The translations under genes were made by a program, and so were the position numbers. DNA of 64,000 nucleotides from NCBI RefSeq assembly GCF_016918935.1, contig NZ_JAFFOB010000019.1, forward strand, positions 186,001 through 250,000. Reading direction: 5' to 3'. This stretch comes from Roseitranquillus sediminis. Its GTDB lineage: Bacteria; Pseudomonadota; Alphaproteobacteria; Rhodobacterales; Rhodobacteraceae. Positions 50,187 through 57,749 of the stretch are shown piece by piece (the first letter of the stretch is position 1; each line of letters opens with the position of its first letter). Under the pieces are notes generated by a model. It worked only from the letters and a program-made list of their open reading frames with translations. It made no database searches and was not told where the DNA came from.

Positions 50187-50191
50187 GCGTG

Positions 50192-51841
50192 ATGCTGGAT
50201 CTCTGGTACAAGAACGCGATCATCTACTGCCTAGACGTCGAAACATTCATGGACGCGAATGGCGACGGCGTGGGTGACTTCGAAGGGCTGACACACCGGC
50301 TCGACCATCTCGAGGCGCTGGGCGTCAATGTCATCTGGTTGAACCCGTTCTACCCGACGCCCAACCGCGACAACGGTTACGACATCACGGACTTCTACGG
50401 TGTAGACCCGCGCCTCGGTCATCTGGGGCATTTCGTCGACTTCTCGCGCGCCGCGGCGGATCGGGGCATGAAGGTGATCGTCGACCTCGTGGTGAACCAC
50501 ACCTCGACCGATCATCCCTGGTTCCGCTCGGCCTGCGAGTCCGAGGACTCGCCCTATCGCGACTGGTACGTCTGGTCGAAGGAAAAGCCGGAAGACATCC
50601 ACGAGGGCATCATCTTCCCGGGGGTTCAGGATGCGGTTTGGACCTACAGCGAGCGGGCCGAGGCGTGGTACCTGCACCGCTTCTACGCGCACCAGGCCGA
50701 CCTCAACATCGCGAACCCGAAGGTGCGCGAGGAGATCCAGCGGATCATGGGCTTCTGGCTGGAGCTTGGCGTCTACGGCTTCCGCATCGACGCGGTGCCG
50801 TTCCTCGTCGAGTACATGGGGCTGAAAGAGAAGCCCGATCGCGAGCCGCTGCTCCTGCTGACCGAGATGCGGGACTTCCTCTCCTGGCGGCGCGCCGGGG
50901 CAATCATGCTGGCAGAGGCCAATGTCACGTATGACACCGTCGGAGCCTACTTCGGCGGACAGCAGATCGGCGCCGAAGACCGGATGCACATGGTCTTCGA
51001 CTTTCCGCTCAACCAGCAGATCTACCTCGGCATCGTGCGCGGCAGCGCCCTTCCGGTCATCGAAGCGCTGAAGCGCCGACCGAGCGAGATGTCGCACGGC
51101 GCGCAGTGGGCGAACTTCCTTCGGAACCACGACGAATTGTCGCTCGACAAGCTCGAGGACGACGAACGACAGGAGGTCTTCGACGCGCTGGGATCCGATC
51201 CCGACATGCAGATCTACGAGCGGGGACTGCGGCGCCGACTCGCCCCCATGATGGGCGGCGACGAGACGCGGCTGGCAATGCTGCACTCGCTGCTCCTGGC
51301 GCTGCCCGGAACGCCGGTCCTATGGTACGGCGACGAAATCGGCATGGGCGAGGACCTGTCGCAGCCGGAGCGCAGTGCAGTGCGCACGCCGATGCAGTGG
51401 GCGAACGAGCCGCACGCCGGCTTCTCGCGCTGCGAAAGCAAGAGCGACCTCGTTCGGCCGGTGGTCGACGAGGGGCCGTTCTCATTCGAACGTGTCAATG
51501 TGGTGGCGCAGCGGGACCGACCCGATTCGCTGATGGGCCGGATCCAGCGACTGATCCGGGTGCGCCGCGCCTGCCCCGAGATTGGATGGGGGGAAACGCA
51601 GGCCATCGACGTTGGCTCCGACGCTGTCCTGGCCATGATCGCGGACTGGCGGGACAATCGCGTGCTCACCCTCCACAATTTCTCGGCTGAACGGCTGCAG
51701 GTGCGGGTGACGCTGCGAGATGCGAGGTTCCTCGCCCGCCTGCTCGAATGTGACACTCCAGACACGGTCCCGGCGGACCAGCCGATCGAGCTGGAGCCCT
51801 ATGGCTTTCGCTGGTTCCGCGTGGACGGCGAGCGGCGGTAG
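50192..51841 (+). CDS. GH13 alpha-glucan enzyme, trehalose-synthase-like
   Basis: A 549-residue glycoside hydrolase. The four conserved regions are VIVDLVVNHTS, GFRIDAVPF (nucleophile Asp200), IMLAEANV (acid/base Glu242) and FLRNHDELS (Asp314). The N-terminus WYKNAIIYCLDVETFMDANG and the RDWYVWS stretch resemble maltose alpha-D-glucosyltransferase (TreS, GH13_16), which interconverts maltose and trehalose; hydrolysis is an alternative. It lacks the fused maltokinase seen in some TreS. ATG 50192 or GTG 50189 starts it, five or fewer bases past the molybdenum subunit, so read-through transcription is likely despite unrelated function. Confidence 0.88.
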   Translation: MLDLWYKNAIIYCLDVETFMDANGDGVGDFEGLTHRLDHLEALGVNVIWLNPFYPTPNRDNGYDITDFYGVDPRLGHLGHFVDFSRAAADRGMKVIVDLVVNHTSTDHPWFRSACESEDSPYRDWYVWSKEKPEDIHEGIIFPGVQDAVWTYSERAEAWYLHRFYAHQADLNIANPKVREEIQRIMGFWLELGVYGFRIDAVPFLVEYMGLKEKPDREPLLLLTEMRDFLSWRRAGAIMLAEANVTYDTVGAYFGGQQIGAEDRMHMVFDFPLNQQIYLGIVRGSALPVIEALKRRPSEMSHGAQWANFLRNHDELSLDKLEDDERQEVFDALGSDPDMQIYERGLRRRLAPMMGGDETRLAMLHSLLLALPGTPVLWYGDEIGMGEDLSQPERSAVRTPMQWANEPHAGFSRCESKSDLVRPVVDEGPFSFERVNVVAQRDRPDSLMGRIQRLIRVRRACPEIGWGETQAIDVGSDAVLAMIADWRDNRVLTLHNFSAERLQVRVTLRDARFLARLLECDTPDTVPADQPIELEPYGFRWFRVDGERR

Positions 51842-52394: not shown

Positions 52395-53453
52395 CTAGCG
52401 GCTTCTGCGTAGCCTCCCGACGACGCCGTCGGGAAAAAAGTAGACGCTGAGGATGAAGAGCACCCCCAACCACAGCAGCCAGCGGTCCGAATTCAGGAGA
52501 TCGGGCAGCAGGAACAATCCTGCCGTCGCCTCGGACGCTCCGCTCATCAGTGTCTGAAGGTAGTTCTGCGCCAGTACGAAGAGAGTCGCGCCGATTACCG
52601 CACCATACATCGTGCCCATTCCGCCGATGACGACCATCAGCAGGATGTCGAGCATGATCTCGAAGCTCAGCACCGTGTCCGGCCCGACGTAGCGCAGCCA
52701 GATGGCGAAGAGGCTGCCGGCGAGGGAGGCCGCCGCGGCCGAGATGCAGGTTGCGGCGATCCGATAGCGCACCACCCGGTAGCCGACCGCCTCGGCGCGG
52801 AAGTCGTTCTCGCGGATCGCCTTAAGCACGCTGCCGAAGGGCGAGTTCACGATGCGCAGGAGGAGCAGGAATAAAATGAGCGCAGAGAAGAAAACGAGGT
52901 AGTAGTTCAGGAGCTTGCCGTTCAGCCGCGTACCGAAGAGCTCGCCCTCCACAATCGTGAGCGCCGGCGTCAGCGCCCGCGGAATGGAGTAGTTGAGCCC
53001 GTCCTCGCCGCCGGTGAGCCCTGAGAACTGACTGACCAGCACCGCGAAGGCCGAGGCCACAGCTAGCGTGATCATCGCGAAGAAGATTGCCCGGACCCTG
53101 AGCGAGAATAGCCCGATCACCAGAGCCAGCGCGACCGCGGCGAATGCGCCCGCCAGCGCGCCGGCGCCGAGGGCCGGGAAGCTGCGGCCAATGTGCTCGC
53201 AGCCCAGCGCAACGCCGTAGGCGCCGAGGCCGAAGAACATGGTGTGGGCGAAGCTGACGATGCCGGTGTAGCCGAGCAGCAGGTCGTAGCTCGCCACCAG
53301 CACGATGAAGATGCAGATCCGCGCCGCCGTCTCCAGCGAGCGCGTGCCGGGAAACAAGAACGGCGCGAAGGCGAGCGAGACGAGGATCGCCGTCAGGATC
53401 AGCGCCAGTGCGGCACTGCGCGGCCGGTCGCCTGCGAGCAGGTGAACGATCAT
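52395..53453 (-). CDS. livM: Branched-chain-type ABC transporter permease LivM
   Basis: A 352-residue inner-membrane permease with about 8-10 helices. Family marks are GYTGIVSFAHTMFFGLGAYG (about 62) and VIGGMGTMYGAVIGA (about 290), with FGSVLKAIRENDFRAEAVGY as the ATPase-contact loop. It forms the pore with LivH. The start overlaps the livH stop by ATGA. Last gene of the operon; a 185-base gap without a gene follows. Confidence 0.92.
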   Translation of the reverse strand: MIVHLLAGDRPRSAALALILTAILVSLAFAPFLFPGTRSLETAARICIFIVLVASYDLLLGYTGIVSFAHTMFFGLGAYGVALGCEHIGRSFPALGAGALAGAFAAVALALVIGLFSLRVRAIFFAMITLAVASAFAVLVSQFSGLTGGEDGLNYSIPRALTPALTIVEGELFGTRLNGKLLNYYLVFFSALILFLLLLRIVNSPFGSVLKAIRENDFRAEAVGYRVVRYRIAATCISAAAASLAGSLFAIWLRYVGPDTVLSFEIMLDILLMVVIGGMGTMYGAVIGATLFVLAQNYLQTLMSGASEATAGLFLLPDLLNSDRWLLWLGVLFILSVYFFPDGVVGRLRRSR

Positions 53454-54481
53454 TTCGCCTTCACCACCGGCATCATGCCCTGCGGCCGCCACATAAGGAT
53501 GACGACCAGCAGGCCGATGTTCGACATCAGCGCGAGCTTCGGCTCGAGGAAGGCCACGTAGTTCTGCATCAGACCCACGAGCAGGGCGCCGATGAAGCAC
53601 CCCTCGACCGAGCCGAGCCCGCCAATGATGACCACGATGAAGACGAGGATCATCATCTCCTCGCCCATGCCAGCCGTCACTACCTCCTGATAGAGTCCCC
53701 ACATCACGCCACCGAGCCCGGCCAGCGCAGAACCCGCGACGAAGACCACCACAAAGACCAGCCGCAGGCGATAGCCCAGCGCCTGCACCATCTCGCCGTC
53801 CTCCACGCCCGCCCGGACGATGAGCCCGATGCGCGTGCGGCGCAGCACCCACCGCATCGCGAGGAACAGCACCAAACCCACCGCCACCGCGACCAGCCGG
53901 TAGCGCTCGAGCGCGGCGCCGGCGAAGGTTACCGCGCCCTTGAGCATCTCCGGCCGCGTCAGATAGATTTCTTCGGGTCCCCAGATCACGGCGATGAGTT
54001 GCTCGACCACGATCAGGCCGCCCACAGTGACGAGGATCTGCTTGAGGTGCGCGCCGTAGACCGGCCGGACGATCACCCGCTCGAACGCCCAGCCCATGAC
54101 GGCCGTCGCCGCCATCGCCGCCAGCACGGCGAGGAACAGAGCCACGAGGTTCAGCGCCAGCGACGGCGCGCCCGTCATCTCCCCCAGCGCCATGAGCAGG
54201 CTGACGCCGACGAACGCGCCGACGGAGATGAAGGCCCCGTGGCCGAAGTTGATGACGTCCATCAGCCCGAAGACCAGCGTCAGCCCCGACGCCATGATAA
54301 AGATCATCATCCCCATCGCCAGTCCCGAAACTGTCAGCGTGAGCCAGGACGAGGTCGACGAAATCGCCGCCAATCCCACCAGCACCAGAACCGGCACCAG
54401 TAGCACCGGCGCCAGACGCGAGAGTCGGTCGGCCAACGGCAGCCGCCTGACGACGCCGGCGCGATCCGCGGCCTCGCTCAC
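53450..54481 (-). CDS. livH: Branched-chain-type ABC transporter permease LivH
   Basis: A 343-residue permease. After a basic N-terminal ~25 residues come the helices with MASGLTLVFGLMDVINFGHG (about 65), VGGLIVVEQLIAVIWGP, RAGVEDGEMVQALGY and IIGGLGSVEGCFIGALLVGL, typical of LivH. Its GTG start (54481) overlaps the stop of the unknown gene upstream (GTGA), and its stop overlaps livM. Confidence 0.92.
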   Translation of the reverse strand: MSEAADRAGVVRRLPLADRLSRLAPVLLVPVLVLVGLAAISSTSSWLTLTVSGLAMGMMIFIMASGLTLVFGLMDVINFGHGAFISVGAFVGVSLLMALGEMTGAPSLALNLVALFLAVLAAMAATAVMGWAFERVIVRPVYGAHLKQILVTVGGLIVVEQLIAVIWGPEEIYLTRPEMLKGAVTFAGAALERYRLVAVAVGLVLFLAMRWVLRRTRIGLIVRAGVEDGEMVQALGYRLRLVFVVVFVAGSALAGLGGVMWGLYQEVVTAGMGEEMMILVFIVVIIGGLGSVEGCFIGALLVGLMQNYVAFLEPKLALMSNIGLLVVILMWRPQGMMPVVKAK

Positions 54482-55011
54482 GCGGCGCTTCCGACGCCGA
54501 CCAGATCCATTCCCTCGAACGCGACCCGCACATCGTCCTTCATGCGCCACGTCTTCGCTTCATCGTCCCAATCGGCGAGGAGCCCCGACCAGAACGGCGT
54601 GCCGTCGCGACGCATCTCCACCGGCCAGAGGTAGTCGCCCCGCTCATGGCACATCTTGCCGAAGTGCGTGTGCCAGGCTTGGCCGTCCCACCCACAGACC
54701 CTCGACAGAGTGGACGACGAGTCGTCCGGGTGCCGGAACAGCGCCTGGATGAAGCGCAGATCAGTCTCCGACGGCGGCCGGCCACGGAAGGCGGCGGTGA
54801 CGCGCGCGATCCGCTCCTCCGGTTCTAGCGCCTCGTATACGCTGGCGGCCGGCGCGGGCACGGCGTCGTCCAGCGCCACGATCAGCCGCTCCGCAGCCTG
54901 GCGCTGCGCATCGCTGCCGCCGTCGCGCCAGCATCCGGCATTTCGGCGCATCCGCGCCCTCTCCTGCTCGGACTTCTCCGTCAGGGTCGCCCTGATCCGG
55001 TCGATATTCAC
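54478..55011 (-). CDS. Unknown soluble protein coupled within the liv operon
   Basis: A 177-residue protein with no signal peptide or membrane helix. The N-terminal ~80 residues are helical and charged (TEKSEQERARMRRNAGCWRD); the C-terminal half has conserved-looking aromatic and Cys/His residues: SRVCGWDGQAWHTHFGKMCH, RGDYLWPVEMRRDG and PFWSGLLADWDDEAKTWRMK. It starts at ATG 55011, overlapping livF by ATGA, and ends overlapping livH by GTGA, so it is translated in step with the importer. I recognise no family. It might regulate the transporter or process its substrate; nothing in the sequence decides this. Confidence 0.85.
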   Translation of the reverse strand: MNIDRIRATLTEKSEQERARMRRNAGCWRDGGSDAQRQAAERLIVALDDAVPAPAASVYEALEPEERIARVTAAFRGRPPSETDLRFIQALFRHPDDSSSTLSRVCGWDGQAWHTHFGKMCHERGDYLWPVEMRRDGTPFWSGLLADWDDEAKTWRMKDDVRVAFEGMDLVGVGSAA

Positions 55012-55730
55012 GCACCCTCCATTCTCAGGCCCATCAGGCGCTCCTGCAGCGCCGTGTCGCCTGCGAGGTCGGCCATCGCACCGGTCCAGACGACGCGGCC
55101 ATCATCCATGACGGCCGCCGTGTCGCCGAGAGCGCGGGCGACGGCGAAGTTCTGCTCGACCATCAGGATGCTCGCCCCCTGCCGCTTCAGGTTGCGCAGC
55201 GCCGCCGCCATGGTCGAGACGATGGCGGGCGCGAGGCCCTTGGTCGGCTCGTCGATCAGGTAGAGGCGCCGCTCTTCGGCCATGGCGCGGGCGATGGAGA
55301 GCATCTGCTTCTGTCCGCCCGACAGCGTGCCTGCGGGCGAGCGCCAGAAGGTGCGGAGCGGCGGGAACGCCTCGAAGATCCGCTCCAGCCGCATCCGGTC
55401 GAGCGGCCCGGAGACGGCGGCGAGCACCATGTTCTCCTCCACCGTCAGGTCCGAGAAGATGCCCATCCCCTCCGGCACATAGCCGACGCCGGCGCGGGCG
55501 ATGGCGGCGGTCGGCGCGGCGATGATGTCCCGGCCGTGGAGCCGGATCGTTCCCGCCCGCGCCCGCCAGTGTCCCATGATCGTGCGCAGGGTCGTCGTTT
55601 TGCCGACGCCGTTGCGGCCGAGCAGCATCGTGACGCCGCCGCGCGCCACCTCGAGGTCGACGCCGTGCAGGATGCGATACTGCGCGATGTCGGTGCAGAC
55701 GCCGGAGAGGGACAGGATCGGCTCAGGCAA
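55008..55730 (-). CDS. livF: Branched-chain-type ABC transporter ATPase LivF
   Basis: A 240-residue ATPase. Walker A is LLGRNGVGKTTTLRTIMG, the signature TLSGGQKQMLSIARAM and Walker B LYLIDEPTKGLAP. It has the short LivF architecture. No ATG lies in the right place; TTG 55730, overlapping livG by eight bases, puts the first strand EPILSLSGV at the normal position. It powers import together with LivG. Confidence 0.9.
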   Translation of the reverse strand: MPEPILSLSGVCTDIAQYRILHGVDLEVARGGVTMLLGRNGVGKTTTLRTIMGHWRARAGTIRLHGRDIIAAPTAAIARAGVGYVPEGMGIFSDLTVEENMVLAAVSGPLDRMRLERIFEAFPPLRTFWRSPAGTLSGGQKQMLSIARAMAEERRLYLIDEPTKGLAPAIVSTMAAALRNLKRQGASILMVEQNFAVARALGDTAAVMDDGRVVWTGAMADLAGDTALQERLMGLRMEGA

Positions 55731-56487
55731 CGTCCAGCCCCCGGCCCATGTAGGCCTCCTGGACCACGTCCGACTCCATGACCTCGGCCGGCGGCCCGTC
55801 CGCGGCAACCCGACCGTTGTGCAGCACCACGATCCGGTCGGCCAGCGTGCGGATCACGTCGAGCTTGTGCTCCACCAGCAGGATGCAGCGGGTGCGGTCG
55901 GCCTGGAGCGCGGCGATCAGGTCCAGCACGCGCGGCGCCTCGTCCATGCTCATGCCGGCCGTGGGCTCGTCGAACATGTAGACGGCGGGATCGAGCGCGA
56001 TCAGCATCGCGACCTCCAGCTTGCGCTGGTCGCCGTGGGAGAGTTCGCTGACCCGCGCCGTCTCCACCCGGTCGAGCCGCACCCGCGTGACGATGTTGCG
56101 CGCCGCGGCCGCGAGGCCAGAGAGGTCGGCCGCCCTCCGCAGCAGCGTGAAGCCGCAGCCTCGCCGGGCCTGCACCGCGAGGCGCACGTTCTCGAGCACC
56201 GTGAGGTCGGGAAAGAGGTTGGTGAGCTGGAACGCGCGGCCGATGCCGCGGGCCGTCCGCTCTGCGGCGCCGGCGCGGGTGATGTCTTGCCCCGCCAGCA
56301 GGACGCGGCCCGCCGTCGCCCGGACCTGGCCGGAGATCAGGTTGAAATAGGTGGTCTTGCCCGCCCCGTTCGGCCCGACGATGGCCGTCAGCTCGCCGGC
56401 GCGAAAGCCGCAGCTGACGCTGTCTACGGCGACGTGGCCGCCGAAGCGGACCGTCAGGTCGCGGGTCTCGAGGAGGGGCTGGGACAT
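55723..56487 (-). CDS. livG: Branched-chain-type ABC transporter ATPase LivG
   Basis: A 254-residue ATPase. Walker A is AIVGPNGAGKTTYFNLI, the signature is the LivG form ELSHGDQRKLEVAMLIA and Walker B is YMFDEPTAGMS. The C-terminal ~15 residues (VVQEAYMGRGLDVA) match the usual LivG tail. ATG 56487 places the first strand correctly. The gene follows the binding-protein gene after 35 bases. Confidence 0.93.
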   Translation of the reverse strand: MSQPLLETRDLTVRFGGHVAVDSVSCGFRAGELTAIVGPNGAGKTTYFNLISGQVRATAGRVLLAGQDITRAGAAERTARGIGRAFQLTNLFPDLTVLENVRLAVQARRGCGFTLLRRAADLSGLAAAARNIVTRVRLDRVETARVSELSHGDQRKLEVAMLIALDPAVYMFDEPTAGMSMDEAPRVLDLIAALQADRTRCILLVEHKLDVIRTLADRIVVLHNGRVAADGPPAEVMESDVVQEAYMGRGLDVA

Positions 56488-56522
56488 GCGGCGAAGGGGG
56501 GCGTTGAAACGCCCCCGCTCCC

Positions 56523-57695
56523 TCACTGGTTCTGGATCGGGATGTCCATGTCCTCGATCCCCAGCTCGCGGACCAGCACCGGGACCCCGTAATCCTTGCC
56601 CTCCTGCACCTCCGTGCGGAAGTGGTACATCGACTGGAGCGCCTGGTGGTCCTCCGGCCGGAAGCGCATCGTGCCTTTGGGCGTCTCCCACTCCATGCCT
56701 TCCATGGCCACGATCAGCTCCTCGGTGTCGGTCGACCCGGCCTTCTCCAGCGCCTCCACGATGGCGATGCCCGCCGCCATGCCGCCGGCGGTGAAGAAGT
56801 CGGGCGGGGTTCCGAAGCGCTCCTGGTGCTGCTCGACCAGCCAGTCGTTCACCGCGTTGTCCGGGATCTCGTAGTAATAGTAGGTCGCGCCCTCCATTCC
56901 CGGCAGCTCCCTGTAGGCGGTGAGCGCCGCCAGGATGTTGCCGCCGGTGGCAATCTCGATGCCGTGGCGCGAGGGCTCCATCGCGTTGATCTTGGTCATC
57001 GGGTTGTTGCCGCCGGCCCAGATGATGAAAAGCTTCTTCTCGCCTTCCACGCCGTCCATCGCGTTGAAGATGCGCTCCGCCGCGGCAGTGAAGTCCGTGG
57101 TGTCGGTCGGAACGTACTCCTCGTGGACGACCTCGCCGCCTGTCGCCTCGAGCGCGGTGCGGAACGCCGCCACCCCGTCGCGGCCGAAGGCGTAGTCCTG
57201 CGCCAGCGTCGCCACCTTGACGTCCTCGCCGCCGAGCGCCACGGCATTCGAGATCGCATCCTGAGAGGAATTGCGCCCAGTGCGGAATACATAGCGGTTC
57301 CAGTCGGTCCCAGTGATGGAGTCCGCGACCGCGGGTTCGACGATCAGGATCTTCTCGTAGTCCCGCGCGACCGGCAGCATCGCGAGCGCTACGCCGGAGC
57401 TGACCGGCCCGACGGCGATGTCGGCGCCGTCGTCGGCGTATGCCTCCTCCAGCATCGCCTTGCCCTGAGCCGGGTCGAGCTGCGTGTCCTTCTCGATGAC
57501 CACGATGTCCTCGCCCAGAATCTGCATCGTCCCGTCGGTCGCGTACTCGAGACCCAGCATCAGGCCCTGATGGCTCTGCGCGGCGTAGGCTTCGAGCGGC
57601 CCCGTCTTGCCGTAGACATGCGCGATGGTGATCTCTGCCGAAGCTGCGCCGGAAATGGCGCCGAGGGCCGCGGCGGCGGCCACTATATGTCTCAC
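56523..57695 (-). CDS. Branched-chain-type ABC transporter binding protein (LivJ/K family)
   Basis: A 390-residue periplasmic binding protein with a signal peptide (hydrophobic 5-18, cut near GAASA). GTG 57695 is preferred because GGGGAGG lies six bases upstream. The two-lobed Peripla_BP_6 fold shows DTQLDPAQGKAMLEEAYADD, VGPVSSGVALAM and DYAFGRDGVAAFRTALEATG. Relatives bind branched-chain amino acids, amides, urea or aromatic acids; the ligand cannot be fixed here. First gene of the operon binding protein-livG-livF-unknown-livH-livM. Confidence 0.9.
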   Translation of the reverse strand: MRHIVAAAAALGAISGAASAEITIAHVYGKTGPLEAYAAQSHQGLMLGLEYATDGTMQILGEDIVVIEKDTQLDPAQGKAMLEEAYADDGADIAVGPVSSGVALAMLPVARDYEKILIVEPAVADSITGTDWNRYVFRTGRNSSQDAISNAVALGGEDVKVATLAQDYAFGRDGVAAFRTALEATGGEVVHEEYVPTDTTDFTAAAERIFNAMDGVEGEKKLFIIWAGGNNPMTKINAMEPSRHGIEIATGGNILAALTAYRELPGMEGATYYYYEIPDNAVNDWLVEQHQERFGTPPDFFTAGGMAAGIAIVEALEKAGSTDTEELIVAMEGMEWETPKGTMRFRPEDHQALQSMYHFRTEVQEGKDYGVPVLVRELGIEDMDIPIQNQ

Positions 57696-57749
57696 GTTCA
57701 ACCTCCCCACGCGCCTGTACGGCGCTTACAGAATTGTGCGGTCATGGCT

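Follow-up and report, generated by a model that had tools for sequence, protein, structure and literature searches.

A liv-type importer operon lies on the minus strand of the window (the whole 64,000-nucleotide stretch of DNA analysed). Between its livF and livH genes stands an additional gene, here called X, which overlaps both neighbours. Is X a part of the importer, a regulator of the operon, or a gene of other origin that came to lie there? The features of the locus are:

56523..57710, minus strand: substrate-binding protein of the importer (SBP; Peripla_BP_6)
55723..56691, minus strand: livG-type ATPase (ABC_tran and BCA_ABC_TP_C; longest open reading frame, start uncertain)
55008..55808, minus strand: livF-type ATPase (ABC_tran; longest open reading frame, start uncertain)
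55016..55020, minus strand: GGAGG in the 3' end of livF, now a ribosome-binding-like site of X (junction sequences)
55008..55011, minus strand: four-base GTGA overlap of the livF stop with the X start
54478..55011, minus strand: gene X, 177 aa, GTG start (open reading frame and sequence; full-length homologue in genome G745)
54478..54481, minus strand: four-base GTGA overlap of the X stop with the livH start, a GTG
53450..54481, minus strand: livH-type permease (BPD_transp_2)
52395..53453, minus strand: livM-type permease (BPD_transp_2; ATGA overlap with livH)

Gene X in the livF/livH junction

The reading frame of X is intact and encodes an acidic protein (pI 5.43). Its GC3 is 0.860, compared to 0.881-0.931 in SBP, livF, livH and livM (livG was excluded from this set). 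A full-length homologue with 70 of 175 residues identical was found in G745, a genome of another family. Thus, X is a real gene, having importer-like GC3 and full-length relatives elsewhere. The sequence-only reading had described four-base overlaps with livF and livH and co-translation of X with the importer. Both overlaps are borne out by the sequence and, as a gene layout, so is the co-translation. Elsewhere in the window, a TreS-like protein is encoded at 50189-51841 on the plus strand (551.2 bits, below the curated cut-off of 678.35), just downstream of an open reading frame for a PaoC-like molybdenum-binding subunit.

The Pfam content around X (Peripla_BP_6, two ABC_tran and two BPD_transp_2) is that of an ordinary five-gene liv-type importer. 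A search with SBP in 248 genomes of the window's family gave 39 matches at E<=1e-60, 38 of them from other genomes, each carrying its own genus label. When the 38 orthologous operons from these other genera were compared by tblastn, all had the order SBP-livG-livF-livH-livM, in agreement with the earlier statement that importers of this class normally comprise a binding protein, two ATPases and two permeases. X had no match in any of them at E<=0.001. The largest gap between livF end and livH start in the 38 operons was 254 bases (L078, aligned coordinates), which excludes room for the 534-base X. Moreover, genome G193 has an X relative elsewhere (L012), and its liv operon (L045) lacks X. Thus, X is an addition to the liv operon seen in the window's genome only, in a survey in which the window's genus was represented by one genome. 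These results contradict the suggestion that X is a standing sixth component; judged by presence in orthologous operons, X does not qualify as part of the importer (0/38).

We next consider the junction itself. In most of the 25 listed relatives the last residues of livF are MGL.ME or something close to it. The ME codons contain a GGAG, which directly precedes the livH start in 10 of the 25; the spacing differs in the others. In the window, the livF end reads ATGGAGGGTGC GTGAAT, where the GTG is the start of X, and GGAGG lies four bases ahead of it. At the 3' end of X, GCC GCGTGA GC runs into livH, and GCGTGA is found at each end of the insertion. X therefore occupies the exact livF/livH stop-start junction. 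Judging by the sequence, the signal ahead of it appears to be of the type used by livH in those 10 listed relatives. Since X stands behind GGAGG and livH is left with a weak GGAAG only upstream, the layout suggests that livH translation is coupled through X.

A relative of X in genome G1044 shares an ATGA overlap with an rsmE-type gene (PF04452, PF20260), and a TTG overlaps the stop of this relative by four bases; the frame continuing from this TTG is a by-eye reading. Further downstream there is a GCS2 gene. This junction looks like a second case of X-type placement. The start is NTGA in all seven full-length members shown, with the starts in G745 and G1190 chosen inside a longer open reading frame for this count; start codons are in any case often followed by an A.

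Predicted fold and family of X

X stayed below cut-off for every Pfam, NCBIfam, PHROGs and PADLOC model, consistent with its earlier description as an unknown protein. NNH6 was the sole Pfam row for X (13.4 bits, compared to a cut-off of 27), and the weak Pfam matches to NNH6 and DUF7716, being below cut-off, were rejected. The anti-phage models of PADLOC-DB gave no match to X at E<=1. We then predicted the structure of X with AlphaFold2, using 14 sequences as input. The model has a mean pLDDT of 90.5 and a pTM of 0.70. Helices are predicted at residues 3-12, 15-31, 34-50, 64-77 and 82-93, followed by a helix-turn-helix (99-105 and 113-123), two strands (146-149, 154-157) and a final helix. 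On this basis X is divided as follows:

54826..55011, minus strand: N-terminal three-helix module, residues 1-62 (AlphaFold2 helices 3-12, 15-31 and 34-50)
54493..54825, minus strand: C-terminal predicted winged helix, residues 63-173 (AlphaFold2; Foldseek and VIA-align; 16 aligned sequences including X)
54643..54717, minus strand: predicted helix-turn-helix, residues 99-123 (model and conservation)
54541..54576, minus strand: predicted wing strands, residues 146-157 (model)

Leu102, Ser103, Gly107, Trp108, Trp113 and Cys121 are conserved in the helix-turn-helix region, with Trp108, Trp113 and Cys121 in or beside the predicted motif. The sequence-only reading had seen a Cys/His/Trp-rich C-terminal half. 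For tryptophan this holds (6 of 7 in residues 63-177), but there are only two Cys and four His in this part, and a metal-site reading of it found no support.

Foldseek with the X model against the PDB returned 152 rows at E<=10, none of them at E<=0.001. Among 50 of these 152 rows the leaders were MarR regulators, Z-beta domains and Csa3. VIA-align with residues 63-177 gave Z scores up to 6.7, with Csa3, MarR, ArsR, the DNA-binding parts of LysR proteins and the N-terminus of Rio2 kinase. Going by their names, we take the leading proteins in both searches to be mostly winged-helix proteins, and Z scores of this size may reflect a common arrangement. The AlphaFold2 elements fit a winged helix, but the Foldseek E values are above 0.001 and Z is at most 6.7. 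Against viral models, Foldseek of X found nothing at E<=0.001. We conclude that X is predicted to combine a three-helix N-terminal module with a C-terminal winged helix. The latter also speaks against the proposal of a substrate-handling enzyme, for which no enzyme family was matched.

The N-terminal module modelled alone had a pLDDT of 79.9, and none of its 13 Foldseek rows reached E<=0.001. Small proteins, often with a basic tail, carry this module too in the order of G745 (L137-L153; lengths by eye), and in 11 of these 17 loci a cold-shock protein gene lies within ~0.3 kb of the match.

No curated winged-helix Pfam family matched X over its cut-off. HTH_24 appeared weakly in 3 of 8 X relatives (best E 0.012), and in the relative at L097 it reached E 0.00098 and 19.1 bits, compared to a cut-off of 21.9. 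Searches of PDB profiles with alignments A7, A10, A6, A9 and A11 gave no row below E 0.001; weak rows included the ArsR-type chains 6uvu (E 0.014 and 0.41) and 3cuo (E 1.1). X residues 63-177 thus resemble MarR/ArsR winged-helix repressors in predicted fold but match no such family. Membership in DUF3489 (PF11994), which is found in 10 of 41 genomes including the window's own, was rejected: hhalign against 15 of the 21 DUF3489 matches aligned only 25 columns at a probability of 46.6, a short common stretch up to the turn of the helix-turn-helix, and no Pfam match was seen at E<=1. Provided that the predicted fold holds, X would represent a new family of a known fold.

Relatives of X and their genomic settings

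Counts from the genome searches are lower bounds, as only the best first-look candidates were scored. The X family was matched in 8 of 394 genomes of the window's family and in 3 of 244 genomes of the order, the window's genome being included in both counts. It was matched in 3 of 385 genomes of the class (own genome included, one match set aside) and in 3 of 149 genomes of the family of G745. A better profile gave 10 of 180 in the order of G745: two already known, three new full-length members and five of a distant subfamily. Matches in G092 (L003, inside a 298-aa open reading frame, AraC-like by eye), G061 and G590 (each with a stop inside) were set aside as likely chance. A tree of 21 X-type domains had stars on just 2 of its 18 inner branches, a poor resolution, and gives X no settled place. 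No description of the family was found within open-licence papers. Most likely, then, the X family is undescribed, sparse and scattered.

Several full-length relatives lie with type I restriction genes. In G792 hsdS and hsdR flank the relative, whose start forms a four-base overlap. In G1136 it directly follows hsdM, hsdS and a small open reading frame, and precedes a 1644-aa protein that scores 1404.6 bits against NF058533 ProA (cut-off 1500). In G745 it is divergent beside hsdM-hsdS-hsdR, with an integrase 14 kb away. A piece of a relative in G817, read by eye, lies in an apparently broken, degenerate restriction locus. The link to restriction thus consists of three loci, two of them (G745 and G792) with one genus label and so not fully independent, and the degenerate G817 locus. 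Three of eight X relatives were within 10 kb of an N6_Mtase gene, compared to an expectation of 0.6-2.7% each (mean 1.2%; P ~9e-5; 8 genomes with 18 N6_Mtase matches). The window's genome has five N6_Mtase matches, none on the contig of X. No type I system adjoins the full-length relatives in G1158, G1190 and G1044; in G1158 an N6_N4_Mtase gene lies ~4 kb downstream, and the open reading frame lists of G1190 and G1044 hold no restriction genes beside the relatives.

Other genes were noted at these loci. The G792 restriction operon has an Abi_2 gene between hsdM and hsdS (L091 9463-10431). In L107, 8261-14786 comprises a type I restriction operon with an X relative and then the ProA-like antiphage protein, which is under its cut-off. 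In L108, 11815-15035 (G1190), two adjoining open reading frames ~2.6 kb from the X relative may form a Hachiman-type defence pair (HamA/HamB). The X relative in G059 has a zinc-finger-like first part, and it is this part that matches an endonuclease PHROG (E 7.5e-6).

A distant subfamily with another N-terminus is found between fmt and truA in four genomes (L109 8407-8922, L110 8651-9166, L112 8213-8737 and L113 of G1148), the fmt and truA neighbours having been Pfam-checked in L109 only. Its domain is homologous to that of X (probability 97.2 over 107 columns). Plasmid relatives of this subfamily numbered nine records, of which seven served as a comparison set; the set includes the C-terminal ~120 residues of a protein from Nostoc C057, and residues 189-286 of this protein match GmrSD_C (25.2 bits, cut-off 23). 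In a single hhalign comparison with the seven plasmid proteins, the X profile reached a probability of 95.4 over 112 columns (E 1.9e-8). Thus, in the seven-protein set, the C-terminal domain of X is homologous over its whole length to the Nostoc GmrSD_C protein and its plasmid relatives. Against the GmrSD_C protein alone the X profile gave 5.6 bits, compared to 53.0 bits for the fmt-truA profile. The annotation puts an ISL3 transposase between this GmrSD_C protein and a DUF262 gene; on plasmid p057_H (L156 613-4372) the transposase stands between DUF262 and DUF1524 genes, a pair that looks like a split GmrSD-type system.

Searches of plasmids and phages gave no matches to X or to its full-length homologues, and three scans of viral contigs gave none either. 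A phage or plasmid origin of X was rejected on these grounds, as X itself matched nothing in phage, viral or plasmid data.

We compared the family with described restriction and defence proteins. PMC12255303 describes RptR as a repressor of type I restriction loci, an all-helical, four-helix protein of 79 aa encoded upstream of the operon, and names the hsdS-hsdR gap as a potential recombination hotspot. RptR resembles the X family as a small regulator whose gene accompanies type I restriction genes, but X relatives lie inside or beside the operon, and X, with 177 aa and predicted wing strands, was rejected as an RptR. Nor did the name RptR occur among the rows of the PDB profile searches. BrxR/CapW regulators (winged-helix-WYL; PMC9122601) are likewise winged-helix proteins travelling with defence systems, but no WYL domain was matched in X. 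A link to GmrSD-type proteins that bear additional C-terminal domains (PF07510; PMC4619093) comes from the Nostoc C057 C-terminus, which is in the set matching the X domain. X has neither nuclease domain, and with both GmrS (PF03235) and GmrD (PF07510) absent it was rejected as a GmrSD type IV restriction enzyme.

In the sequence-only reading, recurrence between livF and livH across genera was to indicate a functional link, and homologues scattered away from transporters were to argue against one. The homologues found are largely of the scattered kind: some belong to restriction operons, one follows an rsmE-type gene, and others are neighbours of genes for a Glu/Gln-tRNA synthetase and a methylmalonyl-CoA mutase. 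What remains is importer proximity among the shorter relatives in Rhodobacteraceae. Five of ten had an ABC ATPase domain within 5 kb, compared to 17.2% of control points (P 0.018), and three of ten within 1 kb, compared to 5.9% (P 0.018). As a control this is coarse: the points come from 20 stretches of the same family, each of 20 kb, which hold 10 ATPase domains in total, and a single stretch accounts for four of the ten. L012, L013 and L014 look like one common site, with an ABC ATPase gene behind an apparent glycosidase gene; when they were counted once, the figure fell to three of eight within 5 kb (P 0.145, not significant). L012-L014 and L083 are convergent with the adjoining importer, and L015 has an ABC permease gene ~4 kb away. 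None of the shorter relatives lies inside an importer operon. Proximity to ABC genes thus lends weak support to a transporter link.

Origin and role of X

We favour, with a probability of roughly 0.55, the reading that X is a winged-helix DNA-binding-type protein from a restriction-linked family, captured by this liv operon in this lineage. Full-length family members recur with restriction systems, and the family probably moves between genomes. One copy would have inserted exactly at the livF/livH stop-start junction, taking over GGAGG from the livF end and bringing the livH GTG inside its own stop. X would then be translated from the importer message, with livH dependent on coupling through X. 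It would work as a small DNA-binding protein, either like a transcription regulator or as a restriction accessory, and not as a part of the importer. It is thus probably a captured passenger, not a new importer part. From these data we infer its DNA binding, its mobility, the defence ancestry of this copy, the livH coupling and its status as a passenger of the liv operon. The capture reading draws on the absence of X from 38 of 38 orthologous operons, GCGTGA at both ends and the GGAG directly before livH in 10 of the 25 listed relatives. The confident model with a helix-turn-helix and two-stranded wing, the winged-helix PDB leaders and HTH_24 in L097 point to the fold, and the loci in G792, G1136 and G745, the N6_Mtase proximity and the plasmid-set match point to restriction. 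Several results weigh against it. X is acidic, the Foldseek and VIA-align scores are modest, and the restriction loci are few, with one genus label twice and three full-length relatives away from type I systems. The plain X profile scores poorly on the GmrSD_C protein, the tree does not settle the place of X, X itself matches no phage, viral or plasmid sequence, and its GC3 shows no sign of recent acquisition. Some of the shorter Rhodobacteraceae relatives are also somewhat close to ABC importers.

That proximity, including the ABC permease near L015, would suit a local transcriptional regulator of the liv operon, with a winged helix acting on the operon promoter in autogenous or substrate-responsive control. 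The regulator option, already raised from the sequence, gains from the predicted MarR/ArsR-like arrangement and from the co-translation layout, but the same operon does without X in all 38 relatives and the proximity loses significance once the syntenic-looking loci are merged. The gene for an operon's regulator is rarely placed mid-operon, and we regard this role as unlikely. It is somewhat more doubtful that the family acts on RNA or translation instead of DNA, the winged helix and helical module being RNA- or ribosome-linked. The fmt-truA subfamily, the relatives by the rsmE-type and tRNA synthetase genes and the N-terminal module near cold-shock protein genes are consistent with such a role; no RNA-binding family was matched, however, the fmt-truA members differ in their N-terminus, and type I restriction operons do not point to RNA.

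X could also be a neutral passenger that has no remaining activity and is kept because livH translation now runs through it. An insertion seen in this genome only and the weak GGAAG ahead of livH would fit, but with the reading frame intact and most family-conserved positions kept we consider this quite improbable; a search for a close X orthologue usable for measuring selection found none. Least credible is a functional sixth importer component, for example an ATPase partner or substrate-handling protein. The overlaps at both ends and the relatives close to importers could be cited in its favour, but the gene is missing from the orthologous operons, its homologues occupy restriction and housekeeping settings and no enzyme family was found, making this highly improbable.

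A broader proposal, which we put forward tentatively and think doubtful as it stands, is that the X family is a mobile winged-helix accessory or controller of restriction systems, spreading in the form of a compact cassette. Its NTGA start would allow it to settle at stop-start overlaps of existing operons, to use the next gene's ribosome-binding site and to be expressed at once.

If the capture of a winged-helix protein is the right explanation, the sixth importer subunit can be dropped as a tempting false lead. An undescribed family would then be present in several type I restriction operons, with a distant form terminating a GmrSD_C-type protein. Restriction-system regulators and accessory proteins have been poorly catalogued, and X would provide a concrete gene for testing. 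Its junction would be a clean case of a gene entering an operon without breaking it, taking what appears to be the translation signal of the gene downstream.
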